From an uncultured Spirochaetales bacterium (GTDB lineage: Bacteria; Spirochaetota; Spirochaetia; Sphaerochaetales; Sphaerochaetaceae), in the NCBI GenBank assembly GCA_949285785.1, contig CASEAG010000031.1:1-64000 (forward strand): a stretch of 64,000 nt of DNA, read 5' to 3'. The notes under the pieces were generated by a model that was not told the origin of the DNA, searched no databases, and saw only the letters and a program-made list of their open reading frames with translations. Made by a program: the position numbers and the translations under genes. Positions 13,394 through 44,775 of this stretch are shown piece by piece. Numbering within the stretch: the first letter of the stretch is position 1; the number at the start of each line of letters is the position of its first letter.

Positions 13394-14466
13394 ACGCCCC
13401 TTGCTTCGGCCTTGTCTATGGCCTCCCAGAGACCTTCGATATACACTGCACCGAGAGCCCTGTCGTACAGGCCGTAGCCGGGCATGCACTTCTCGCCCCA
13501 GATGGTCCTTCCGTGGTCAGGGCGGATCGGTCCGTCAAAGCCGATGTCGTGAAGCGCCTTGACCGCTTCATACATGTCGAAGGATCCGTCCGAGGAAAGA
13601 TGTGCCGCCTCTTCGAAGACACCCTTCGAGAAGTGGTGGAGATTCCTGACATGCGCGAAGTGGATTCTCTTTCCACATGCCTTGATGAGGTCCGGGAAGT
13701 CGATGTCCGGGTTGGAGCCGAGGCTGCCCATGCAGAAGGTCAGTCCATTATAGTCCTTGTCGACCGCCTTGAAGAGACGCAGAATCGCCTCCTTTCCGGT
13801 GATGATCCTGGGCAGACCGAAGACGGGCCAGGCCGGATCGTCCGGGTGGATCGCCATCTTTATGCCGTATTTCTCGCATACGGGGCCGATCGCCTCGAGG
13901 AAATATACGAGGTTTGCGAACAGCTTGTCGCTGTCGACGTCCTTGTACGCCTCAAAAAGCTCGGCGACGTGGGAAAGCCTCTCCGGCTCCCAGCCTGGCA
14001 TGACGAAGCCGTTGGAGTTGTCGTTCGTCTGGTTGAAGAAGGTCTGGGGGTCGATGGAATCGACGACCTTCTGGTCGTAGGCCAGCACGGTGGATCCGTC
14101 AGGTCTCATCTTCGCAAGATCGGTCCTGGTCCAGTCGAAGACAGGCATGAAGTTGTAGCAGACGAGGTCGATCCCCTCCTGTCCAAGGTGCTCGAGGGTG
14201 TTGATGTAGTTCTGGATATACCTGTCACGCTCAGGGGTTCCGATCTTGATGGCATCATGGATGTTCACGCTTTCGATGCCCTCGATCTTCAGGCCGGCCT
14301 TCTCGACGATCTCCTTGAGTTCATGAATCCGCTCTCTGGGCCATTCCTCTCCGGCAGGAATATCGTAAAGGGTTGTGATGACGCCTGTGACGCCGGGGAT
14401 CTGTCTGATCTGCTCGAGGGTGACAGAGTCGAAACCGGGGCCATACCAGCGAAGAGTCATTTTCAT
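13390..14466 (-). CDS. uxuA: Mannonate dehydratase
   Basis: The 358-residue protein carries UxuA hallmarks: MKMTLRWYGP start, IPGVTGVITTLYDIPAGEEW (about 23-42), MAIHPDDPAWPVFGLPRI (about 222-239), CMGSLGSNPD (about 268), the His ligand in KRIHFAHVRN, and IRPDHGRTIWGEK near the C-terminus. The enzyme dehydrates D-mannonate to 2-keto-3-deoxygluconate using Mn2+ or Fe2+. It is the first gene of the hexuronate operon. KDG kinase and aldolase are not in the window. Confidence 0.95.
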   Translation of the reverse strand: MKMTLRWYGPGFDSVTLEQIRQIPGVTGVITTLYDIPAGEEWPRERIHELKEIVEKAGLKIEGIESVNIHDAIKIGTPERDRYIQNYINTLEHLGQEGIDLVCYNFMPVFDWTRTDLAKMRPDGSTVLAYDQKVVDSIDPQTFFNQTNDNSNGFVMPGWEPERLSHVAELFEAYKDVDSDKLFANLVYFLEAIGPVCEKYGIKMAIHPDDPAWPVFGLPRIITGKEAILRLFKAVDKDYNGLTFCMGSLGSNPDIDFPDLIKACGKRIHFAHVRNLHHFSKGVFEEAAHLSSDGSFDMYEAVKALHDIGFDGPIRPDHGRTIWGEKCMPGYGLYDRALGAVYIEGLWEAIDKAEARGV

Positions 14467-14499
14467 AAGAGTTCTCTCTCCTTTTATGCGAAATTGATA

Positions 14500-14512
14500 T
14501 ATTAGAATACTA
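14500..14512 (-). promoter_or_regulatory. Candidate GntR operator upstream of uxuA
   Basis: An imperfect dyad TAnTA-N3-TAnTA (minus strand TAGTA-TTC-TAATA) lies 34 bases upstream of the uxuA start, in its AT-rich promoter zone. Its position suits autoregulation by the operon's GntR protein. The call rests on symmetry and location only. Confidence 0.35.
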
Positions 14513-15016
14513 GACCCGTATTGAGCACCTGTAAAGACTTTTTTCGTTCTGAATGGATAAATTATAACGCGTGCGTGCGAAAGATGCATATCAGAACCAG
14601 AATATGTTTGACTGCAACGAGGCGGTTTCAAGGGAAGACGTTTGTAAAGCCGGCTTTTTCATATGAAAGGCATCCACCTTGGATACATCGCATGATGGTA
14701 GGCATTCCAGGACCATCCGGAGAAAAGTTACGGTTCTTCTGAGGAAAAACAAGCGTCATATAATATAAGATGAAATAATAAATACCTAATAAGGTATGAA
14801 ATAAATTCATAAAATGAAGATATCCTGGTTTTAATATGAGCGGTTTACTGCGTGGCCGGTTTTGAAGCCGTGATGAAGTCGGAATTGAAGCAGAGCGACT
14901 GAATGGAAGCGAAATAATTATGTAACTAAAGTATATGTTTGTTTTTAATAGTTAATGAAAATGAGGTAAAATATTTTAGTAAATCATTGCAGTATAAATA
15001 TTTACATAGAAAATGC

Positions 15017-15045
15017 TTGACATGTTGCTTAAACAATGATAAATT
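15017..15045 (+). promoter_or_regulatory. Sigma70-type promoter in the gene desert
   Basis: TTGACA at 15017-15022 is separated by 17 bases from TAAATT at 15040-15045, with an A/T-rich upstream stretch like an UP element. No coding start with a ribosome binding site follows within 200 bases, so a non-coding transcript is the natural product. Confidence 0.55.
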
Positions 15046-15052
15046 CACTTAT

Positions 15053-15281
15053 ATAGAAGTGAAGAACTTCCTTGTAACTGATCTTTGATATCATTGCGGC
15101 TCGCACCGGCACTCCAGAAGGTAAGGGCCCTGAACATCGGAACCGGTGTCTGGGGAACGAAGAGGGAAGAAAGGAAAGCCAGTGTTCAGAAAGTGTTTCT
15201 CATAGCCGGTGAGCCGATGGAAGACGGAGCGGGTAGGTGAACTGTTCCGTGTTCCTCATAGCGGTATCTATCCAATACCGC
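15053..15281 (+). ncRNA. Candidate structured RNA of unknown class
   Basis: Downstream of the promoter, GGCTCgcACCGGC (15098-15110) can pair with GCCGGTGAGCC (15205-15215) and close a ~120-nt domain. Inside it, CCAGA (15114) pairs with TCTGG (15149) and CTGAACA (15130) pairs with TGTTCAG (15183). These two pairings interleave, a pseudoknot topology. A 7-bp hairpin GCGGTAT/ATACCGC follows at 15261-15281. It does not show the conserved boxes I know for RNase P, tmRNA or SRP RNA. The call rests on pairing only. Confidence 0.35.
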
Positions 15282-15296
15282 AGACCTCCTCCTTTG

Positions 15297-15354
15297 AACG
15301 GGGTGTTTCCTATGTCTGTCATGAGGGTGATGACTGGAGAGGAAACATCCCGTT
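15297..15354. repeat. Long imperfect hairpin (58 nt)
   Basis: Arms AACGGGGTGTTTCC and GGAAACATCCCGTT (one G:T pair) enclose an inner stem GTCAT/ATGAC. No U-tract follows, so it is not a standard terminator. It could be part of the candidate RNA or an end of a decayed mobile element. Confidence 0.55.
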
Positions 15355-16300
15355 CTCTTGTTATTCATTTTCCTATTCCAACCATACGGTTTCCTCTCAA
15401 TGCAGCAATGCTTCAACTTGAAGGTGAATGGTTTCTCCCGATTGTGATAAGGGCATACATTTGAACAGTCGAATTGCACCGGATAGTCATGATAATGTTG
15501 TTGTATGGAGCGAACCACTTCCTTTTAAATTTCCTTCTGGTTATAGAAGTTTTCGAATTCACCTGAGGTGAATCCACAGCAAATATTCAGAAGCCTGTCC
15601 TAAGGACGATAGTTGGGAAACCAGGTATGCACCTCTGGTGGATGCATATCCAGAACAATCTCTGTCTGCACTTGATTGAAATTAATCCGATTCTTTTCCT
15701 GCCGAATAACCTGGTTGTCTTGAGTGTTTGATGATTGTTCGAGGTCGTGAATGCAAAGCAATGGTCATGCATCGAGATGAATGGCCTCTTTAGTGAAAGC
15801 CGTTTCATCTCTACCATTTTGGGTTCGTGATGGCTTGATATGGTAAATCGATGCGTCTTCGTGTCGATAATCACGTTTTTAAGGAACGATTCATGCGATT
15901 CTGCATCGTATTACGAAAACAATTTGGCTCTAACGATGCATTGATATCCTCAATATGTATCTTATAAACGTAAACATGCTGTCTGTTTTCAGCTTAGGGC
16001 ATCATCCACCTTTCTTCTCTTGTTTTCACCCTGTCTTCTGGATACGATTCCTGAATATGCTGACGTACCTGCCCGTGCATAGTCATACAACGTCAGGCAG
16101 GGCATCCTTGAGTCGTTTGCAATGGTGTTCATTTCCAGAACCAGTGGATGTGGGACAACCGGTGTGCAATGCTTCTGTCACGAAAAAAGACAAGGGATGA
16201 ATTCTGTCTTAGAGTGCACCTTGTCCCCGTCTTCATCGGATTTGATTTCCATTGACGCTGATGTCCAGTCGGTTGGAATCCCATACACCAAGAGCGAATC

Positions 16301-35513: not shown

Positions 35514-37865
35514 TCAACTGTCAACACCTATGTTCAACAACTTGAGTCTTGTTGTCTGGCCAGATCGGAAGACCTTGGAAGCCACATCGGGATGATATGT
35601 CGCGATATAGGCCAACCTGTATGAATCGATTGCGCATGATATGCATTGGGCCTTTGATGGCAGATGTCCATCATTGAATTGTCTGTAATTGCCTTCTAGA
35701 GTGTAGAGGCGTTCCAGGGCTTCCGTCCACGCTACTCCGTTTCCCATTTCTTTCCATAAGTACTTCTCTTTGAGTCCATTGATTCCGCTTTTATCCTTCT
35801 TCCGGATCAGTCTCAAGGCATTTTCGACTTCCGCGATTGTACAGCTTCCCAATGCAGAAAGCTCCAGTATGAAATCCTCTTCATATAAAATGCACTGTTC
35901 CTGAACCGCAGCAGAGGTCGAGCCATACACATCATTGACTTCTGCGATGAATTCATCGATATTCAGCTCCTTTATCAGTGGAACGAAAGCAATCGAAGCG
36001 GCGAATCCGGATATGTTCCGAGGCCTTATCAGTTCAAGGAGTTTCCAGAAACGCGGCTCTTCATCGTCCCAAGGGCTCATGCACGTAACGGTGTCACCCG
36101 ATATTTCCTCGACAGGAGAAAGGAATTCATAGGATTCCTCATATGGGCTTCTCGGTATCATTGATTCGAACACCTTCTCATCAGTCAGGTCTATCTTCCT
36201 GATATCGAAACCGGGAGCATATTCCTTTCTGATCATCTTTTCCGCCTTCTCGATGTATTGAAGATGATCCGCTGTGATTATATGGAAGTCTTGTGCAGGT
36301 GAAAGACGGTCATAATCGGCAACCGGCAGATCATGGTCCGGATTGGTGACCAGATGTAGACGATTCTTCCGGGAAGACCATATGAGGGTTTTTCCGTACA
36401 TGGGAGAGGATGCATATTTCCGATTCTCATCAACCGAATAACCATGCTTGAGGTCTGATATGGCCCTTACACTTTCGATAAAGGAACCGGCATATTCGAC
36501 AGGCCTGAGTGAAAAGGCATTCCATACCTTCAAGAATTTCCCGAGTTCTTCGAGTGTCAGGTGTCTCCGGTGATAGGCTGGAAAGGGGAATTCAGGGCAG
36601 CCATACACAGAAGCGACTGATGACACTGTCTCCCAGGAATCGAACTCCGTGTACCGGCATCCGGCATAGGCAAGGCAATGGTCTTCAAATTCCGCCGTGA
36701 TATGTCCGATGATTCTGGACCGTCCATCCGGGGACGTCAACAGAGGCATGTATATGGCTTCTGCCGGATATTCAATGTTTATGAATCCTTCGGATATGAG
36801 TCCATGCACAAGCGGGTCGACATCCGTGATTTCAAGAAGGTAACAGACCAGGAAGCCGACATAAGGCCATCGACCTGCGGACATCGCTATCCCTTCATGC
36901 CTGGCCCATGAGACTATGTCGTGGATGACAAGGAACAATCCTGTACAGCCGGTCTTTCTGATAGCTCGAAGCTCTTCCCTCAGACGGGCCTGTATCTTCT
37001 CATCAGCAATCACATATCTCTTCGCCAGACCCTCATTTGCAAGAGCCGTAAGGTGTTCATCAGGATTCTGATGGATTTCAGGGCAGGGAAATCTCAACAA
37101 GTCATGGGAATATCCAATGAAATCAAGACTGCACCGGTCGGCGATTCTCGAAGTGTTCTCCAACGCCCCGGGACACCAGGAGAAGAGCGCATTCATTTCT
37201 GCTTCGGTCTTGAAGTAATATTCGCCTTCCGACACTGGCGTATTCTTCTGCTTTACATCTCTGATGCAGCAGAGAGTGTCATAGGCATCGGCATCATCCC
37301 TGCACATATAATGGACGTCGTTTGTGCACACGCATTCTATCCCGAGCTCGTCGGCAAGCCCTTTCAGCAGAGGAAGAACCGCTTTCTCCTCCGCTTTTCC
37401 ATGGTCCTGGAGTTCGATATAGAACCTGTCTCTAAAGACATTTCTGAACATGAGCGCAAGATGCCTTGCCTCTTCTCCTTTTCCAGAGGCAAGCCTTTTT
37501 GCCAGCTCGCCGTCTGATCCACCCGAAAGACAGATCAGCCCTTCGTGATGGTTTGCCAGGTCATCAAGACAAAGCCCTTTCCGTGACAGGGTGACCAGCA
37601 CCGCAAGATTATTCATCCCTTCTTCATCCATTGCGATGCAGACAATGCCTCCATCCTTGAATGAAAGCTCGGCTGCTATCATCGGCTTGATACCAGCCTG
37701 CCTGCATGCCTCTGAAAAAACGATAGCCCCGGCGATGCTGTTGGTATCGGAAATGGCAAGCACCTTCATGCCTACCTCATGCGCAGCTTCTATGTATTGA
37801 TCGATTCTGGCTGTGGAATCTCCAAGTGAATAATCGGTGTGACAATGCAGATGTACAAAGCCCAT
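35514..37865 (-). CDS. PHP-domain DnaE-like protein with lost polymerase active site
   Basis: The 783-residue protein is co-linear with the first two-thirds of DNA polymerase III alpha. The PHP domain is well kept (FVHLHCHTDYSLGD, MIAAELSF, then CTNDVHYMCRDDADAYDTL at about 201), though the usual TDHG has become SDTN. The palm keeps ITDVDPL and FIN, but the catalytic G-R-G-S-x-A-G-S is GRWPYVGF and the PDxDxDF motif with two catalytic Asp is EAIYMPLL. Finger remnants (LIRPRNISGF, VQEQCILYEEDF, SYRLAYIATYHPDVASKVF) continue to the end; OB and tau-binding parts are absent. It cannot be a normal polymerase. PHP-dependent nuclease or phosphatase activity, or competition within the replisome, are possible. 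It is divergent from the 37962 gene across a shared palindrome. Confidence 0.8.
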   Translation of the reverse strand: MGFVHLHCHTDYSLGDSTARIDQYIEAAHEVGMKVLAISDTNSIAGAIVFSEACRQAGIKPMIAAELSFKDGGIVCIAMDEEGMNNLAVLVTLSRKGLCLDDLANHHEGLICLSGGSDGELAKRLASGKGEEARHLALMFRNVFRDRFYIELQDHGKAEEKAVLPLLKGLADELGIECVCTNDVHYMCRDDADAYDTLCCIRDVKQKNTPVSEGEYYFKTEAEMNALFSWCPGALENTSRIADRCSLDFIGYSHDLLRFPCPEIHQNPDEHLTALANEGLAKRYVIADEKIQARLREELRAIRKTGCTGLFLVIHDIVSWARHEGIAMSAGRWPYVGFLVCYLLEITDVDPLVHGLISEGFINIEYPAEAIYMPLLTSPDGRSRIIGHITAEFEDHCLAYAGCRYTEFDSWETVSSVASVYGCPEFPFPAYHRRHLTLEELGKFLKVWNAFSLRPVEYAGSFIESVRAISDLKHGYSVDENRKYASSPMYGKTLIWSSRKNRLHLVTNPDHDLPVADYDRLSPAQDFHIITADHLQYIEKAEKMIRKEYAPGFDIRKIDLTDEKVFESMIPRSPYEESYEFLSPVEEISGDTVTCMSPWDDEEPRFWKLLELIRPRNISGFAASIAFVPLIKELNIDEFIAEVNDVYGSTSAAVQEQCILYEEDFILELSALGSCTIAEVENALRLIRKKDKSGINGLKEKYLWKEMGNGVAWTEALERLYTLEGNYRQFNDGHLPSKAQCISCAIDSYRLAYIATYHPDVASKVFRSGQTTRLKLLNIGVDS

Positions 37866-37904
37866 GACGTCATTTCCTCCATCTAAGGGCAGAGTACATT
37901 CCTA

Positions 37905-37923
37905 GTGTGACAGCTTCTGTCAT
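37905..37923. promoter_or_regulatory. Island operator, copy A
   Basis: GTGTGACAG-ctt-CTGTCAT in the divergent gap between the PHP-DnaE-like gene and the 274-residue gene. All 16 non-spacer bases are identical to copy B at 43642-43660 (opposite orientation). Confidence 0.75.
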
Positions 37924-37961
37924 GTACGACCGATACCATGCAATCTGTTCAGAGGTGATAT

Positions 37962-38786
37962 ATGGACTATTCAGACAAGATCCAGACTCACATCGATGCA
38001 CTCAGGCATTATCTTCTTGCACAGGCGGAGGCAAACGATCCGTTCATCTCCCAGCGGGATAGAAATGAGAGAATATCCCGTGATATTCTCATGGCCTCCT
38101 CGATGGTGCGAGGAATGTACATCAATGATATAACAGGGATGAATCCGGGCTTTGCAGCATTCCTTTCAAGGTTTTCTCCTGTATTCACGCTTGACTGGAA
38201 TTCGGAGTTCATGGATGAGATTTCCGTGTTCTCCCATTTTGCCAAGCCTTTCCAGATCATGATCAATACTTCCGCCGAGAATAATGACCACAGGCTTTCA
38301 ATCACTCCTGACGACAAGGAGTTTCTGAATAAGGCTGACAAACTTGTCCGTATCGTTGCGACTTTCGAAAAGTATGAGAGTGAGGATAATGGAATAAGGG
38401 TGACATTCGATGCCTATCAGCACATCCAGGATAGGAAGGAAAGTCTTGTCAGGGATCTCTTCTCCCGTTCTGTAATCCACTACAGGGGAGAGAGTGCTCC
38501 TACGTCCGATTCCAGCCCCGCCAATGTCGAAAAGGTGAATCGTATCCTGCTTGATGCGATATACGATTCATACCCAAAGAACATCGCTCCGGATGACCTG
38601 GATGGTGCGATGGTACATGTCATCCAGGCTTGCGATAATGAAAGACGCAAAGTGATGATTTCCGAATACCATGACTATGAGGAGTTCTTCAAATCCTATC
38701 CGTATGGCTGGTCCGATCAGTTGATATACAAGTCCTGGGAGACATCCTTGAAGGAGGAGATCATCACCGAGTGTGATACAGACTAG
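37962..38786 (+). CDS. Unrecognised 274-residue protein of the island
   Basis: A soluble, acidic, mostly helical-looking protein with no signal peptide or membrane segment. Visible features are an N-terminal helical part with RDRNERISRDILMASSMVRGM (NERISRDILMASSMVRG, about 27-44), a central Asp/Lys-rich part, and a Tyr-rich C-terminus (SEYHDYEEFFKSYPYGW, about 240-256). No family is recognised. AGAGGTGATAT precedes the ATG. It shares a palindrome-bearing promoter gap with the PHP-DnaE-like gene, and its 3' end overlaps the convergent WYL gene by 23 bases. Confidence 0.7.
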   Translation: MDYSDKIQTHIDALRHYLLAQAEANDPFISQRDRNERISRDILMASSMVRGMYINDITGMNPGFAAFLSRFSPVFTLDWNSEFMDEISVFSHFAKPFQIMINTSAENNDHRLSITPDDKEFLNKADKLVRIVATFEKYESEDNGIRVTFDAYQHIQDRKESLVRDLFSRSVIHYRGESAPTSDSSPANVEKVNRILLDAIYDSYPKNIAPDDLDGAMVHVIQACDNERRKVMISEYHDYEEFFKSYPYGWSDQLIYKSWETSLKEEIITECDTD

Positions 38787-39786
38787 CCGTCTGGTCGAGC
38801 ATGTCTGAGACTTTGCTCCTCAGCCATTCAGGTTCAAGCAGCTCTGCCTGGGCACGCATCGAGAGTATCCAGTTCACGAATTCCCATTCGCCATATGTCG
38901 TAACCTCGAAGATGGCAGAGCCGTCTTCGTTGACTCTGATCATGACATCATCCGGCCATTTCCTTTCTTTGACATACTTCACCTGGGCTGGAGCTATCCA
39001 GACCTTGGCTTCTATCTTCTCCCGGCCGATGAATGGGCCGAATGGATCTGTAAGAAGGCCGTAAGGGTCGAAGTCTGGTTTCAAAGCAATGCTGTCCTTT
39101 AGGACATTGACTGTCTCGATCCTCTCGATGGCATATGTCCTCAATGCACCATCCTCCAATAGTGCTTGCAGATACATTCCGCCATCAAAGAAGAATGCGA
39201 AAACAGGAGAGAGGTTCTCTGCTTCCAGCGCAGCAGGTTTGTTTGGTACGTGGTAGGCCATGGAGATCCTGTTCTGCCCGTTGATTGCTTTCAGTATCTG
39301 CTTGACGATTTGTTTTGTCTCCTTTGAGGCTATCTTGCTGATTGAACTGATGTTCTCTATCGGAAACAGCTTTCTGGAAATGCTCTTTGGGTAATCGAGA
39401 GAAGGGAATGCTACAGATTTCTGGCTCAGCATCGAGGCAAGCTTGTTCCTGACAGACTTGAAGGCAGGGAGGACTTCCTCGTTTTTCTTCAGCTCGGCCA
39501 GCATGTAATGGAGAATGATACGTTCTTCTTGAGAGAACTCCGAGGATGGCAATGCGTTGCCGTACTTGTCGCTGTGCAGATCAAGCATCGTCCAGAGTTT
39601 TTCCCTGCCGTTTCTCCTTTCTTCATTTGTAAGTGCATAGCCTTCCGCCTGAAGCCTGTCGAGAAACCTGTAGGCCGTTCTTATGGAGATTCCGAAATGC
39701 TCTGCAATATCGTAGATGGAACGTCCGTTCCCGTTGCCGATGTATGTCGCAATGCCGAGTTTTGTCGCCAGATCGTCTGAAGCCAT
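38764..39786 (-). CDS. WYL-domain transcriptional regulator
   Basis: The 340-residue protein has an N-terminal winged helix (RSIYDIAEHFGISIRTAYRFLDRLQAEG, about 22-49 in this numbering) and a WYL sensor domain (NRISMAYHV, then FFDGGMYLQALLEDG and RTYAIERIETVNVL), where the W-Y-L core reads M-Y-L, followed by a WCX-like C-terminus. WYL regulators often repress DNA-repair or phage-defence operons (BrxR, CapW) and respond to nucleic-acid ligands. It is the only regulator in the island and the best candidate for the shared palindrome. I use ATG 39786 because GGAAGGAAGG precedes it and the promoter -10 overlaps the upstream ATG 39807. Confidence 0.88.
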   Translation of the reverse strand: MASDDLATKLGIATYIGNGNGRSIYDIAEHFGISIRTAYRFLDRLQAEGYALTNEERRNGREKLWTMLDLHSDKYGNALPSSEFSQEERIILHYMLAELKKNEEVLPAFKSVRNKLASMLSQKSVAFPSLDYPKSISRKLFPIENISSISKIASKETKQIVKQILKAINGQNRISMAYHVPNKPAALEAENLSPVFAFFFDGGMYLQALLEDGALRTYAIERIETVNVLKDSIALKPDFDPYGLLTDPFGPFIGREKIEAKVWIAPAQVKYVKERKWPDDVMIRVNEDGSAIFEVTTYGEWEFVNWILSMRAQAELLEPEWLRSKVSDMLDQTASLYHTR

Positions 39787-39805
39787 ATCCTTCCTTCCTG
39801 AATTC

Positions 39806-39834
39806 ATTATCGGTCATTTGTTGAACTCTGTCAG
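39806..39834 (-). promoter_or_regulatory. Promoter of the WYL regulator gene
   Basis: On the minus strand CTGACA, 17 bases, GATAAT. The -35 contains the TGACAG half-site of the island palindrome but lacks the second arm. Confidence 0.6.
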
Positions 39835-39885
39835 CATGTGGCACATATGAATGGCAGAATCGGAGCCTGTACAGGAGTTCCATTC

Positions 39886-40653
39886 ATGATAGACAGATTC
39901 TCAGCCAGCTGGAAGGAGGCATGTGAGCTCATCGAGTACACATATGCGGAGGATCTGGAAGGCTGGGCATGTCCGGATGACGGCATCATCGATATCCACT
40001 CTCCGGTTCTGGACAGGCTTTCGCCTGGTGATGTCGTCTGTATGAACGCCATCAATTATTCCTACTTCCTTCTCTTTGGCATGCTTCGTCCTGCGATACT
40101 GGACTATACTCCTTTTGCGATGCTTTCATGCAATGAGAAAGCTCAGGAATTCCAGAACAGGATGCTGTTCAGCTTTCTGAGTGGAGAATATGAATCCGAT
40201 GAGAAGCTGCTTGATCGGTTGTCCACCGGATCGATTCTGTCGAAGAGATTAAGAGCGAAGAGACTCTGTGAGGTTGAAGATGAACTTGAAGTCCTGTCGG
40301 CGAAAGGATTCAAGGTCGTTACCATCTCATATGGTGCAGATTTTCCGTATCTTGATGCCGAGTCAAGAGAGAAGGGTTATGCTGACCATTATGATGCTTT
40401 CGGAAAGGTTGCTGTGAAATATGGCCTGTCTCTGATAGTCTTCACCTCATCTCTTCCAAGGAATCTGGATGGAGTGACAACACTTAAGGTCTGGCCGGAA
40501 AGGAACAGGCTCATACTTGCTCCGCCCGAGGCAGTGACAGTCACTGTAAACGGAGGAAAGCAATACAGATTCCACATCGAGAATGACAGCAGGATCATAG
40601 CCGGCTTCAGTATCAGGGGGCGAAAAATGTTTCTGGTTAGAAAGGACAGTTGA
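39886..40653 (+). CDS. Unrecognised 255-residue protein of the island
   Basis: A soluble protein without signal peptide. The N-terminal half contains DGIIDIHSPVLDRLSPGDVV (about 32-51), which reads like a small beta-strand/turn module, and the C-terminal half has alternating beta segments (GLSLIVFTSSLPRNL; RIIAGFSIRGRKMFLVRK). No family is recognised. ATG 39886 is chosen because AGGAG lies 8 bases upstream; a GTG at 39838 has no such site. It is divergent from the WYL regulator, a position often held by regulated effectors. Confidence 0.7.
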   Translation: MIDRFSASWKEACELIEYTYAEDLEGWACPDDGIIDIHSPVLDRLSPGDVVCMNAINYSYFLLFGMLRPAILDYTPFAMLSCNEKAQEFQNRMLFSFLSGEYESDEKLLDRLSTGSILSKRLRAKRLCEVEDELEVLSAKGFKVVTISYGADFPYLDAESREKGYADHYDAFGKVAVKYGLSLIVFTSSLPRNLDGVTTLKVWPERNRLILAPPEAVTVTVNGGKQYRFHIENDSRIIAGFSIRGRKMFLVRKDS

Positions 40654-40659
40654 GGCCGA

Positions 40660-41967
40660 TCACTCAGCCTCAGCCTTACTTGTCAGAAGCTCTGTGAATA
40701 AATCTAAAGGAGTCTTCCCCTCATTGTTCTTCTTACAAATGATGTCTTCCGGAAGGAACTTCGCTGCTTCCTTGAAATCATCCATCGTGACATCGTATTT
40801 CCCTTCGGTAATCATGATGTGCAGCACGGTGTTTCCGTTTCCATCAACATCATAAGGATCGGCTCCAGCATTCATCAGATCTTCAATGCAGATGGGATAC
40901 CTCCTCGCAATGTAGTAGAGGACGGTCCTTCCTCTTGAATTTCTGGCGTTTATATCCTCTTTTGTCGGCGCAAGAATCGGGTAACAATCTATAGTGAGAT
41001 TATCATTACATAATGCTACGGCTAACAACTCAGGATTACCAGATTCATCACGCTTTTTTGCATATGAAGGGTGCATCAGCCTCTTGAGAATTTCCATGTT
41101 GTCATACTCGCTGTTGAAACGGAATATGAAATGTTCAAATGCTTCAAATGCCTTGTCTGTCCCCGGAATGAGAATTTCCCGTGAAAACATCTTTTCAAGT
41201 ATTCTCATATTCTTTCTCGGGTAGCTGTTAATGTCGCATAGAGAATCATCTGAAGCTCTTGAAAGAAGCAGATCAAATGCTTTTTCATTGTCATGACAGG
41301 TTGCACGACTCAGCATCCAGCCTTCATCGTATTCATCGAATATTCCCAAGGACATGCAAACCTGAAGCGCCTTAAAAAACTCCTCATCTTCCACAACCAC
41401 ACGGCAGATTTGGCCTAGATTGAAAGCCTCTTGTCTTCCATATTCGATATCCTCTTTTTTCAGGAAGAGCGCAAAATCAATAATCCAGGAGTTGAGATAG
41501 GATAGAAAGCCCGGCTCATAGACATCATCAGGATTAAGACGGAACGGTATCTGGAAATAAGAGTCCTTATGCAATACATCAAGATAGTAGCTGCTGCTGA
41601 AAAGTAGATATGACACTGCCTCCTTCCTGTCAATCCCTTTCGCCCTCATCAGAAAAGCTGTTATCTCTTCTGGTGTACCAGAAAACGGTGTAACATCCGG
41701 GCCAGAAGGAAGAGTGAAGCCGATATCAAGAAGAGCTTCAAGCACTGAGACATGTGCCATCTCCCTCAGTGCGAATCGCATTGGATACATGTCCTCACAC
41801 TTCTTTCTCTCCCATTCATTCTCGTCGGTTGGTGCCTTGCCTTTGTAAGCCTTGATGATTGAGATATCCTCATTCCTTATTGCGGCATACAGAGCTTCCA
41901 AAGCCTGTTTCTCCGAACGCTTTTTCCCGACTAATGTCTTGTAGTAGTTGCTGATCTCTCTATTCAT
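40660..41967 (-). CDS. Ankyrin-repeat protein
   Basis: In this 435-residue protein the C-terminal ~120 residues contain ankyrin repeats: NARNSRGRTVLYYIARRYPICIEDLMNAGADP (NARNSRGRTVLYYIARRY, LMNAGADP) and DVDGNGNTVLHIMITEG, then NNEGKTPLDLF. The N-terminal two-thirds is helical and probably holds degenerate repeats (ALREMAHVSVLEALLDIG). Ankyrin repeats bind other proteins. It is the last gene of a Nudix - 91-residue protein - ankyrin operon, 6 bases after the previous stop, with GAGGT before its ATG. Confidence 0.85.
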   Translation of the reverse strand: MNREISNYYKTLVGKKRSEKQALEALYAAIRNEDISIIKAYKGKAPTDENEWERKKCEDMYPMRFALREMAHVSVLEALLDIGFTLPSGPDVTPFSGTPEEITAFLMRAKGIDRKEAVSYLLFSSSYYLDVLHKDSYFQIPFRLNPDDVYEPGFLSYLNSWIIDFALFLKKEDIEYGRQEAFNLGQICRVVVEDEEFFKALQVCMSLGIFDEYDEGWMLSRATCHDNEKAFDLLLSRASDDSLCDINSYPRKNMRILEKMFSREILIPGTDKAFEAFEHFIFRFNSEYDNMEILKRLMHPSYAKKRDESGNPELLAVALCNDNLTIDCYPILAPTKEDINARNSRGRTVLYYIARRYPICIEDLMNAGADPYDVDGNGNTVLHIMITEGKYDVTMDDFKEAAKFLPEDIICKKNNEGKTPLDLFTELLTSKAEAE

Positions 41968-41973
41968 ATTACC

Positions 41974-42249
41974 TCAGTCGATTGCCCAGCCGTCTTCAAC
42001 GAGATCCTCTATGAAGTCATATGCCTTGATAAAGGATACCGGGGTTCTTGAATCATCCATGTCGAAAATGAAATACCTCTTGTCCTTCTCGCTGTCAGGG
42101 ATGAGGGCTTTTGCCTTGTCTGTGATGAAGAGGTCCCTGTCGAATCCGAGCGCGAAGGTGTATTTCCCCTTTACGACTTTCTTGAGCATTGTTGCTCCAG
42201 CTTCTCCGAAATGCTTGATTGTCATCACCTGCAATTCTTCACTCCACAT
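41974..42249 (-). CDS. Small protein of unknown function (91 residues)
   Basis: An acidic alpha/beta protein (ITDKAKALIPDSEKDKRYF and FIKAYDFIEDLVEDGW) with no recognisable domain. AGGAGAAG precedes the ATG by 8 bases, and its first 11 bases overlap the Nudix stop region, so it is translationally coupled to Nudix. The ankyrin gene follows 6 bases later. It may be a partner or immunity-type protein, but nothing in the sequence proves this. Confidence 0.7.
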   Translation of the reverse strand: MWSEELQVMTIKHFGEAGATMLKKVVKGKYTFALGFDRDLFITDKAKALIPDSEKDKRYFIFDMDDSRTPVSFIKAYDFIEDLVEDGWAID

Positions 42250-42652
42250 GCTGCTTCTCCTTTCTGATGAAGTCTTTTATCTCTATTCTCGTCATCCAGT
42301 TCATGCCTTCTGGAAGCCTGTCTATTGAAAACCATTCAATTGCATCTGATTCCCAGTTCTTCCGTGGAACTGCTTTATGGCGCAGTTCAGATGCAAAAAC
42401 ATAGTAGGAGAAATATGGCAGATGATAGTTCATGACAGGCCATGCTGAATCGACTTTGATTCCTGTCTCTTCATAGGTTTCTCTCTGAGCCGCTTTTATG
42501 AATTTCTCACACTCGTCAATAGCACCACCAGGAATTGCCCAGGTATGGTTGTCGGATCTCTTTTCAAGAAGAACCGAGATGCAGCCTTTTCCATCCTTCG
42601 TGTAGAGAATCATTCCGGCGCCGTAGTAATGTCTAAGCTTAAGCTCTTTCAT
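42239..42652 (-). CDS. Nudix hydrolase
   Basis: The 137-residue protein has a complete Nudix box GGAIDECEKFIKAAQRETYEETGI (G-x5-E-x7-REUXEEXGU; core RETYEETGI, about 52-60). The family hydrolyses nucleoside diphosphates linked to another moiety, such as oxidised dNTPs, ADP-ribose or NAD(H). The substrate cannot be read from the sequence. First gene of the three-gene minus-strand operon; AGGAG is 6 bases upstream and a degenerate island palindrome lies 37 bases upstream. Confidence 0.92.
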   Translation of the reverse strand: MKELKLRHYYGAGMILYTKDGKGCISVLLEKRSDNHTWAIPGGAIDECEKFIKAAQRETYEETGIKVDSAWPVMNYHLPYFSYYVFASELRHKAVPRKNWESDAIEWFSIDRLPEGMNWMTRIEIKDFIRKEKQHVE

Positions 42653-42688
42653 CTTTTTCTCCTGTGATGATTAGAGCTTAAGCGATAA

Positions 42689-42707
42689 GTGTGACATTTG
42701 CTGACAG
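42689..42707. promoter_or_regulatory. Island operator, degenerate copy C
   Basis: GTGTGACAtttgCTGaCAg matches copies A and B at 13 of 16 non-spacer positions, with the same geometry. It lies upstream of the Nudix operon. Confidence 0.5.
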
Positions 42708-42721
42708 ACGAAAAGTTTTTG

Positions 42722-43597
42722 TTAATTTGCGTTCAGTCCGAACACTCTTGAGCCTAGTTTGCGCTTGTAAAGGCTTTCGATTTCAATCACATCATCCTTT
42801 CTTGTTTCTTTTGGAATGATTCTCAGAATCGTGAATTGGAAATGTTCATATGTGTTTGCTTCTTTTTCCATAAGTTCAATCAACAACTTGTCTCCGCCAG
42901 TGTGGTTGTTTGCATAATCAGTCCAGCGTCCAAGAATTCCATTTTCCCCTGAAGCGGATCCAACGTATTGCTGACCATTCTTTGTGTTGACAATCAGATA
43001 GATTCCGTAAACTGACGAGAGAGCAGAGTGCCATGCCTCATAGCTTATGGGATCGTTGACCATTTCAAACAGCTCAGGATATGTCAAGATGACATTCTCA
43101 TATCCTGGGAAGGCTATTTTCTCATTATCCATCAAGGCTGTAATCATCTTAGGTTGTCTGCCTGAAATCTGGTACCATCTTATTGCTGCCTTGCCCCAGT
43201 CTATGATGAGCTTGCCGTAATACTCTTTCAATTCTTCGTATTCTTCCAGGTCATAAAGATAGGATTCTGTGTTACTGGCTGCGAAGTCATCTTCAACCGG
43301 ATAGTTTTCTGGTTTCATTTCCGGAGTGCATTTGACGCAATCTCCGACTTTATAAATGCGATACAGTTTTGCACTAGTGCCTTTTGTACTGATGAAGATA
43401 GCCCAATAGTCATATTTCCCTTTGAATTGAGTGCCTTGGCACGCAGTATACGTTTTGATAAACAAGTCTCTGTTTTTGGAATCAGAATAGCACTTGGCAA
43501 AATTGGCATGATTCAGTGAGTGTCTGATAAGCAATACTCTATCAAGATTTGTTATTCCGGCCTTTTCCAGAACATCGTTGAAAGTCAAATATGGCAT
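42722..43597 (-). CDS. GIY-YIG nuclease with unidentified N-terminal domain
   Basis: In this 291-residue protein a C-terminal GIY-YIG domain (about 190-285) shows VYGIYLIVN, QQYVGSASG, the catalytic Arg in ILGRWTDY and a distal Glu in IEIESLYKRKLG. The N-terminal ~180 residues are not recognised (starts LTFNDVLEKAGI, later KGKYDYWAIFISTKGTSAKL). The arrangement, sensor-like half plus single-metal endonuclease, is seen in restriction and mobile-element enzymes. GGAGGAG precedes the ATG. It is divergent from the DnaB-like gene across palindrome copy B. Confidence 0.85.
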   Translation of the reverse strand: MPYLTFNDVLEKAGITNLDRVLLIRHSLNHANFAKCYSDSKNRDLFIKTYTACQGTQFKGKYDYWAIFISTKGTSAKLYRIYKVGDCVKCTPEMKPENYPVEDDFAASNTESYLYDLEEYEELKEYYGKLIIDWGKAAIRWYQISGRQPKMITALMDNEKIAFPGYENVILTYPELFEMVNDPISYEAWHSALSSVYGIYLIVNTKNGQQYVGSASGENGILGRWTDYANNHTGGDKLLIELMEKEANTYEHFQFTILRIIPKETRKDDVIEIESLYKRKLGSRVFGLNAN

Positions 43598-43641
43598 TTA
43601 TCTCCTCCGAGGTTTTCTTAGACTATCTATATCCTAATTGT

Positions 43642-43660
43642 ATGACAGTTTCTGTCACAC
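43642..43660. promoter_or_regulatory. Island operator, copy B, overlapping two divergent promoters
   Basis: On the minus strand GTGTGACAG-aaa-CTGTCAT. In the plus direction it overlaps the -35 of ATGACA-N17-ATTATA for the DnaB-like gene. In the minus direction it lies between TTTACG and TACAAT (17-base spacer) for the GIY-YIG gene. A bound protein would block both. Confidence 0.75.
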
Positions 43661-43709
43661 GTAAATTATATCGTTCATCCTAAACTGAAATGTAGGAGTA
43701 GACCGTAAG

Positions 43710-44657
43710 ATGATTTCTAGTTATGAAATAATCGAGAAGTATTCTGTACTGGTGGAGAAGCATTCCATAAAGAATCAGTTAGAAGAATATTCTGATTCGC
43801 TATATACTACGGTATATAATGTATATCGAACATATGATTCAACAGGCTTTCCCGCATTGGATCCATATCTTAAAAAAAAGGATTGTCCAGTAGGGCAATT
43901 GATCACAATAGGTGCACGACCTTCCATTGGTAAGACCGCCTTTGCCGTATCACTGATTCGAAATATGCTTGTGAGAGGTAAGGAAATTCTATTCTTTTCC
44001 CTTGAGATGTCGTCAAAAGATATCATCAATAGATTGGTTTCCAGCATCTCCAAGGTAAGTCTGTACAATATTATCAAAAAAAAATACTGCCCCGATGAAT
44101 TCGATAGAGTCATAACCGCAATAGAGTATCTCTGGACTAAGCACTTATACATTGTTGATATTCCCAATATATCAATTAATGCATTGTGGGATATCGCAGT
44201 GGCAGATAAAACAAGAAATTGTGTTGGTTCAGATTGCATACTGATTGATCATTTTGGGCTAATCGGAGATGAGGTGTCTTCATCGGATAAATACGAAAGC
44301 TTCTCTAGAGAACTACAATCCATTGCACAAGTGATGAATAAACCTGTCATTACAATGTTCCAACTTCCACGTGTTAATAATCAAAGAGAGCCTTCTTTGA
44401 TAGACATGCCCTGCGCTATGAATTCACTTGTTGATGATAGTGATATTGTTCTCTTCCTCCACAGAAATAGATCTCAAATTGAAGCTGAGCAATGCCCCAT
44501 AGTAGGCGAAGAAGATGTCAAATCACTTCAAGTTGCAAAAGTCATCATTGCAAAGAATAAGAATGGCGATATAGGACATACTTTTCTTGGATTCGATGGT
44601 AGCACGGCTTCATTTGAGAATATTGAACACCCGTTCCGATGGTTTCTGCAGCTATAG
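43710..44657 (+). CDS. Free-standing DnaB-type RecA-fold ATPase
   Basis: The 315-residue protein matches the C-terminal motor of replicative helicase DnaB: DPYLKKKDCPVGQLITIGARPSIGKTAFAVSL (Walker A ARPSIGKTAF, about 77-86), FFSLEMSSKDIINRL (about 103-117), Walker B CILIDHFGLI (about 175-184), and the QLPRVNNQREP region. The DnaB N-terminal domain is missing; only about 50 residues precede the motor. In the Walker B area HFGL replaces the usual YLQL. It is the most AT-rich gene in the window. It may be a helicase-like effector or a mimic of the replicative helicase. AGGAG is 11 bases upstream. Confidence 0.85.
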   Translation: MISSYEIIEKYSVLVEKHSIKNQLEEYSDSLYTTVYNVYRTYDSTGFPALDPYLKKKDCPVGQLITIGARPSIGKTAFAVSLIRNMLVRGKEILFFSLEMSSKDIINRLVSSISKVSLYNIIKKKYCPDEFDRVITAIEYLWTKHLYIVDIPNISINALWDIAVADKTRNCVGSDCILIDHFGLIGDEVSSSDKYESFSRELQSIAQVMNKPVITMFQLPRVNNQREPSLIDMPCAMNSLVDDSDIVLFLHRNRSQIEAEQCPIVGEEDVKSLQVAKVIIAKNKNGDIGHTFLGFDGSTASFENIEHPFRWFLQL

Positions 44658-44775
44658 TGAGGTCTACCCGGCTGACAGTGGGTTCTGCTTCCGGCGTCGA
44701 GTTGCCACTGTCGCAGGAGAACAGCAGAACCATTGCGGCAAGCACACATATTGAGACAAGAGCTGGATGTCTCAT
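44545..44775 (-). pseudogene. Truncated lipoprotein gene at the island edge
   Basis: The frame starts with a real-looking gene start: GGAGG 8 bases before ATG 44775, then MRHPALVSICVLAAMVLLFSC, a classical lipobox, and a Ser/Thr/Pro-rich spacer. After about 48 residues, near 44,635, it runs antisense into the 3' end of the DnaB-like gene and base composition changes at once. The last ~28 residues look like random sequence. Best read as a lipoprotein gene whose 3' part was lost when the island arrived. A genuine 76-residue lipoprotein is less likely. Confidence 0.6.

Follow-up and report, generated by a model that had tools for sequence, protein, structure and literature searches.

A truncated DnaE paralogue, predicted to be non-catalytic, in a mobile spirochaete gene cluster with a putative WYL-bound operator

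What use could a bacterium have for a second replicative polymerase that appears unable to polymerise? The question is raised by a 64,000-nucleotide stretch of DNA (the window) from an uncultured Spirochaetales bacterium (contig CASEAG010000031.1), in which an open reading frame of 783 amino acids (aa), located at 35514-37865 on the minus strand and free of internal stops, encodes a protein resembling DnaE, the alpha subunit of DNA polymerase III. A GGAGG lies about 10 bases ahead of its ATG. Here we report an analysis of this DnaE-like protein, of its relatives in the class and of the genes around it. The reading that we put forward, with roughly even confidence, is that a truncated paralogue of DnaE1 has lost both its polymerase chemistry and its attachment to clamp and tau, and has been kept as a binding or scaffold protein in a putative WYL-controlled regulon of defence type. 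Most of the functional information lies in the surrounding gene cluster, in the operator that its genes share and in the DnaB-like partner, all three of which were missed in an earlier note on this DNA.

Domain content and lost motifs of the DnaE-like protein

The window protein is homologous to DnaE1 through the PHP, palm, thumb and fingers domains. Pfam matches were obtained for PHP (4.5e-33) and DNA_pol3_alpha (1e-20), and the match to the fingers (0.0036) fell below the cut-off; a fingers-only relative, equivalent to residues ~613-766, clears this cut-off, so that the C-terminal third of the window protein can be assigned to the fingers too. A profile of the seven-member DnaE-like family aligned end to end with residues 7-790 of E. 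coli DnaE (1e-165), in agreement with the co-linearity over PHP, palm and fingers described in the earlier note. The chain ends about 20 residues past the last fingers helix, at approximately E. coli DnaE residue 790, and the beta-binding domain is thus missing together with the OB and C-terminal domains, whose absence had been reported before. The structure prediction and superposition proposed in that note gave an AlphaFold2 model of moderate confidence (pLDDT, the predicted local distance difference test score, of 68; mostly 70-95 in the PHP domain and <50 in residues 446-525). VIA-align placed model residues 1-773 onto E. coli DnaE with a Z of 35 and a root-mean-square deviation (rmsd) of 8 Å over 692 residues, and the PHP domain (1-248) onto 4gx8 with an rmsd of 1.8 Å over 246 residues. 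The same genome also encodes an intact DnaE of 1173 aa (contig C33), and these comparisons identify the 783-aa protein as a truncated paralogue of chromosomal DnaE1.

The loss of catalytic motifs was evaluated by aligning the window protein with DnaEs from its own genus. The MPDFDIDF of these DnaEs is replaced by YMP---LLT, so the palm Asp pair is gone, and GRGSGAGS is replaced by GRWPYVGF; the disappearance of both PDxDxDF and GRGSxAGS had been correctly noted. The HTSLHAAGVVIG palm segment and the thumb have diverged beyond recognition. The third palm Asp (KMDFLGL) is present in the window protein by one alignment and not by another, and the orthologues lack it. Judged by its motifs, the protein is catalytically dead and would be unable to synthesise DNA.

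The PHP site is trinuclear. The window protein retains six of the nine metal ligands (H7, H9, D16, E66, D183 and H185), and these are invariant across its orthologues in genomes G001 and G012 and its relative in G075. The DHGN His has become T41, the YHL His has been lost with its loop, and the LSAC Cys is replaced by Gly; the same-clade dead members all lack three of the nine. The remaining six could still bind one metal. The statement that the PHP ligands are mostly kept holds as a count and not as a sign of an active site: the window protein falls short of the complete set of an active PHP exonuclease (HHDHEH[C/H]DH), any deviation from which has been counted as inactive (PMC12926913), and by this published standard its PHP domain would be inactive.

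Selection on the gene and recurrence of short DnaEs

The DnaE-like gene occurs in three of the 16 genomes of the genus, including that of the window, the orthologues in G001 and G012 having open frames and 58% identity. Nei-Gojobori estimates, which are near saturation and rest on three orthologues, two of them very close, gave a synonymous divergence (dS) of 1.67-1.80, a nonsynonymous divergence (dN) of 0.31 and a dN/dS of 0.17-0.18 for the window gene against those of G012 and G001, and a dN/dS of 0.25 for G012 against G001; all full-length comparisons therefore lie within 0.17-0.25. The genuine dnaE, taken over the same pairs of species and compared between G000 and G001, has a dS of 1.64, a dN of 0.11 and a dN/dS of 0.07. 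Since the dS values match, the DnaE-like gene is about as old as the species split, and the ratios of 0.17-0.18 and 0.07 indicate that its constraint, although about 2.7 times lower than that of a replicase, is a long way from neutrality. In G012, the genuine dnaE (L076, G012:C33) is split into two frames, probably by an assembly error. A decaying polymerase would have been betrayed, according to the earlier note, by recent frameshifts or a dN/dS near 1 in relatives; the frames are open in three species and the ratio is well below 1, which shows a gene under purifying selection and not one in decay.

Constraint is distributed unevenly: the PHP domain, with a dN of 0.23, is the most constrained part and the fingers, with 0.50, are the least. 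The window protein keeps 63 of the 98 DnaE-invariant columns in PHP and 11 of the 79 in palm-C/thumb. The combination of a low dN/dS with lost catalytic motifs supports the proposal of selection for the fold and not for synthesis. The further proposal of selection for the PHP site is supported in part: PHP is the most constrained region, but the three ligands are gone, and other lineages have lost further ligands or the whole domain.

A search confined to the class identified fingers-truncated short DnaEs beside an intact DnaE in all eight genomes checked, from four families; these counts leave out G387 and also G269, whose short frame reaches or nearly reaches the end of its contig. Besides the window protein and its G001 and G012 orthologues, dead forms occur in G075 (753 aa), G081 (copy G081a, 764 aa), G427 (812 aa), G057 (708 aa, with PIFSIDF, overlapping a WYL gene), G210 (858 aa, adjoining an ankyrin gene) and G160 (410 aa, with a WYL gene ~4 kb off). 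Further PHP ligands are lost in G057, G210 and G427, and the entire PHP domain in G160. The G160 gene (L100:7567-11073) is the first in a series of overlapping genes that also encode a DUF2779 protein and two unknown proteins; at the G057 locus (L143:3320-6495), RecT and Mu-Gam-like genes adjoin the dead short DnaE, possibly a prophage version.

Two other short DnaEs, at L098:9298-11712 and L099:5194-7248, have intact palm motifs and no beta-binding, OB or C-terminal domains, and possibly represent minimal C-family polymerases inside the same cluster. In a phylogenetic tree, these motif-intact copies, G081b and G110, ~60% identical to host DnaE, stand beside the DnaEs of their family, and the dead forms occupy very long branches of unsure placement; G081b retains all nine PHP ligands. 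The pattern fits a history in which truncated copies of host dnaE were captured more than once and afterwards lost catalysis, the other possible history being one ancient origin of the dead forms. Fingers-only genes, with 9.5 nonsynonymous to 1.5 synonymous changes in one comparison, look like relics.

The gene cluster, its putative operator and its mobility

The features of the window locus are collected in Table 1. Among the compared genomes, nearly all of which are draft assemblies, a block comprising the NUDIX, 91-aa, ankyrin, 260-aa, WYL and 274-aa genes is common to G000, G001, G009 and G012 of the genus, with proteins 75-91% identical to those of the window. It is flanked by the genes of the DnaE-like protein and of an ATPase with a DnaB_C domain only; within the genus, the ATPase gene is restricted to genomes that have the block. 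In another genus (g16), G081 carries consecutive NUDIX, DnaE-like, WYL, DnaB-like, ankyrin and 260-aa genes, followed by a second gene set with another short DnaE. Full or partial blocks were also identified in G110, G030, G073, G080, G101, G075, G109 and G086; in G075 the DnaE-like gene sits apart from the block. Of 395 genomes of the class, 11 had the 274-aa marker, and all 11 belong to these two genera.

Table 1. Coordinates of the predicted features at the window locus
Feature	Coordinates	Strand	Remarks
DnaE-like pseudo-polymerase, 783 aa	35514..37865	-	PHP ~1-250, palm/thumb ~251-530, fingers ~531-768
Low-GC island	35554..44709		flank matches to the nearest relative break off here
Perfect palindrome TGACAGCTTCTGTCA	37908..37922		putative operator of divergent promoters; 43 bp from DnaE-like start, 54 bp from 274-aa start
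274-aa core protein	37962..38786	+	cluster marker; no match in a Pfam scan or a PDB search by profile
HTH-WYL-WCX transcription regulator	38764..39807	-	helix-turn-helix (HTH) protein; putative owner of the operator
Weak operator copy	39829..39843		3 mismatches; between WYL and 260-aa genes
Core protein of ~255-271 aa ("260-aa")	39886..40653	+	family not recognised
Ankyrin-repeat core protein, 435 aa	40660..41967	-	
91-aa core protein	41974..42249	-	family not recognised
NUDIX hydrolase, 137 aa	42239..42652	-	NUDIX box intact on reading
Operator copy	42692..42706		2 mismatches; 40 bp upstream of NUDIX
GIY-YIG protein	42722..43597	-	PADLOC UzuA (defence), 5e-89
Perfect operator TGACAGTTTCTGTCA	43643..43657		between UzuA and DnaB-like genes
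DnaB-like RecA-fold ATPase, 315 aa	43710..44657	+	DnaB_C only, Walker A kept, no N-terminal domain

Genes for UzuA, Nmad, PDC-S01 and TnpB are among the cluster neighbours, and no PADLOC system model fitted the cluster proteins tested well, apart from UzuA and a generic WYL. Nmad2-Nmad3 genes (nucleotide modification associated) adjoin the DnaE-like gene in G012 and G001 (L023:9285-11216, L024:7777-9390), with the cluster operator upstream, and AAA_14/DUF4143 genes (PADLOC PDC-S01) lie repeatedly near the cluster (L024:5168-6385, L098:13916-15250, L117:13035-14291). Two candidate assignments were rejected: the 260-aa protein resembles a dead DnaB by eye, but profile comparison gave a probability of ~1% and a two-sequence AlphaFold model a pLDDT of 36; and a 317-aa protein of G030 with a weak DnaE match reads by eye as an AraC-type regulator.

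A palindrome with the consensus TGACAG-N3-CTGTCA was identified upstream of cluster transcription units in at least 10 genomes. The whole window genome contains three perfect copies, two of them inside the island, and a reversed control none. At 13 loci, 37 of 87 cluster genes, compared with 1 of 157 others, have a copy with <=2 mismatches no more than 110 bp upstream (Fisher p 1.7e-18, in a test that treats orthologues from close species as independent genes). The operator precedes the genes for the 274-aa protein (10/11), NUDIX (9/11), the DnaB-like ATPase (5/8), the DnaE-like protein (4/7) and Nmad (2/3). It also precedes UzuA (46 bp upstream at 42722-43597), a known defence gene that thus seems to have joined the regulon. 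In G075, from another genus, it stands 52 bp upstream of the solitary DnaE-like gene. Outside the cluster, perfect palindromes were found at G000:C10:29044-29058, G001:C3:95155, G009:C45:8405 and G012:C29:18415; the last three share one spacer and may mark a further regulon member.

The palindrome is probably bound by the WYL protein of the cluster, as the block contains no other recognised HTH regulator and inverted repeats are the binding sites of WYL factors of the BrxR type (PMC9122601). Defence and DNA-damage regulons are controlled by WYL factors, which act through such repeats or in answer to single-stranded DNA or related signals (PMC9122601, PMC9122588, PMC11804915). The features of WYL defence islands, such as those of BrxR (PMC9122601) and CapW (PMC9122588), are found here: an HTH-WYL regulator, a common upstream inverted repeat, an adjacent defence gene (UzuA) and a patchy, mobile distribution. 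The gene content differs, consisting of the DnaE-like, DnaB-like, NUDIX, ankyrin, 274-aa and 260-aa genes.

Mobility is indicated by several observations. The window flanks are 92-95% identical in the nearest relative, G011, where the match stops at 35553 and resumes at ~44690-44710; the last dozen codons of the DnaE-like gene therefore derive from flanking DNA. A clean empty site in G011 was considered and set aside, the two flanks lying on different contigs and the single junction being unreadable. GC content is 0.39-0.50 in the island and 0.55-0.62 elsewhere in the window. Between the window and G110, dS is 0.41 for the WYL gene and 0.56 for the 260-aa gene, compared with 2.2 for the genuine dnaE, and such values show horizontal transfer of the block between genera. 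A second low-GC stretch of the window, at 14001-16000 (0.43-0.45), is almost devoid of frames >100 aa.

Proposed role and competing explanations

Binding is the likeliest role for the DnaE-like protein, because the synthesis motifs and the clamp-binding part are lost, the fold and above all PHP are conserved, and a putative switch is common to this gene, a helicase-like ATPase and defence-associated genes. We propose that the WYL protein would bind the palindrome and keep these genes repressed until repression is lifted by a nucleic-acid signal that reports phage or damaged DNA. Once induced, the DnaE-like protein, whose PHP face is best preserved, might engage primed DNA or replication proteins of host or phage without extension, with the DnaB-like ATPase probably acting alongside, so that foreign replication would be blocked or sensed. 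Alternatively, it might serve as bait for phage inhibitors of replication. A bolder version, tentative and rather unlikely, is a mobile immune system of a new kind: host polymerase and helicase copies without catalysis, induced through WYL, would act as decoys for phage proteins that take over or inhibit replication of the host, or would sense them.

Several observations weigh against the binding role. The copies G081b (804 aa) and G110 (at least 684 aa) keep intact polymerase motifs, so not every short DnaE of the cluster is dead. The stretches read of the core-cluster genomes G030, G080 and G109 contain no DnaE-like gene, which makes it accessory to the core. In G012 there is a fingers-only copy with stops, in G073 the DnaE-like copy is reduced to a 68-aa fragment, and the non-independence of orthologues in the enrichment test counts here as well.

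One competing explanation sees in the locus what is left of the replication module (DnaB plus DnaE) from an integrated phage or plasmid. It would account for the two genes in one low-GC mobile island and for RecT and Mu-Gam genes at the G057 locus, and phages do carry DnaE. We regard it as unlikely, since the nearest matches are to host spirochaete DnaE1 (37-46% across the N-terminal part that aligned, compared with mostly ~20-32% for phage), profiles of the 274-aa and 260-aa proteins find no relative in viral contigs, and no structural gene, integrase or tRNA was seen in the island. The phage and IMG/VR matches retrieved proved to be ordinary DnaEs, with intact motifs and lengths of 1172-1236 aa in the five phage contigs read.

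The protein might instead be a PHP phosphoesterase or nuclease with the polymerase remnant as a mere platform, possibly acting on nucleotides with the NUDIX hydrolase. The conservation of PHP and its six invariant ligands would agree with this, as would the known noncanonical PolX, which lacks polymerase activity and has a PHP exonuclease (PMC9226535). Such PolX and PolX-like proteins (PMC9226535, PMC12926913) likewise retain PHP beside an inactive or missing polymerase part, but they belong to the X family and their exonuclease is active. The three ligands lost throughout the dead members of the clade, and the heavier losses in other lineages, render an enzymatic role improbable.

Equally to be weighed is a duplicated dnaE turning into a pseudogene on a mobile island, to which the lost catalysis and C-terminus, the weaker constraint than in genuine dnaE, the decayed fingers-only remnants and the G073 fragment all lend some colour. 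It is quite improbable for the full-length gene, which is intact in three species at dS ~1.7 and in a relative of 39-42% identity, has a low dN/dS in every full-length comparison and retains its own operator upstream, dead truncated forms recurring in four families.

Very unlikely, finally, is an ImuB-like scaffold of a DNA-damage mutasome, where the dead DnaE would work with the RecA-fold DnaB-like ATPase to recruit another polymerase: the set of dead polymerase, RecA-fold ATPase and WYL factor does resemble ImuB/ImuA and WYL damage regulons, and G081 has two adjacent short DnaEs, one dead and one motif-intact, but the window cluster has no active polymerase, as a DnaE2/ImuC system would, the clamp-binding part is absent, and a scan of cluster proteins gave no ImuA, ImuB or Y-family match.

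Among polymerases of the Y and X families, inactive paralogues are known. The Y-family cassette in a LexA context is likewise a regulated cassette in which a dead polymerase paralogue is kept beside a RecA-fold protein; the present case differs in its C-family origin, its WYL context and the lack of an active partner polymerase in the cluster. Our literature search found no description of an inactive C-family paralogue or of a DnaE defence decoy, and a major C-family survey began its analysis only after discarding fragments that lacked an intact active site (PMC3919608). The shared operator provides a direct handle on a set of genes of unknown function. If the decoy system were real, the recurrent capture and inactivation of fingers-truncated DnaEs across spirochaete families would be the trace of an arms race. 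For the replicase fold, a dead DnaE that recurs, lacks the clamp-binding part and is held under purifying selection would constitute a new role.
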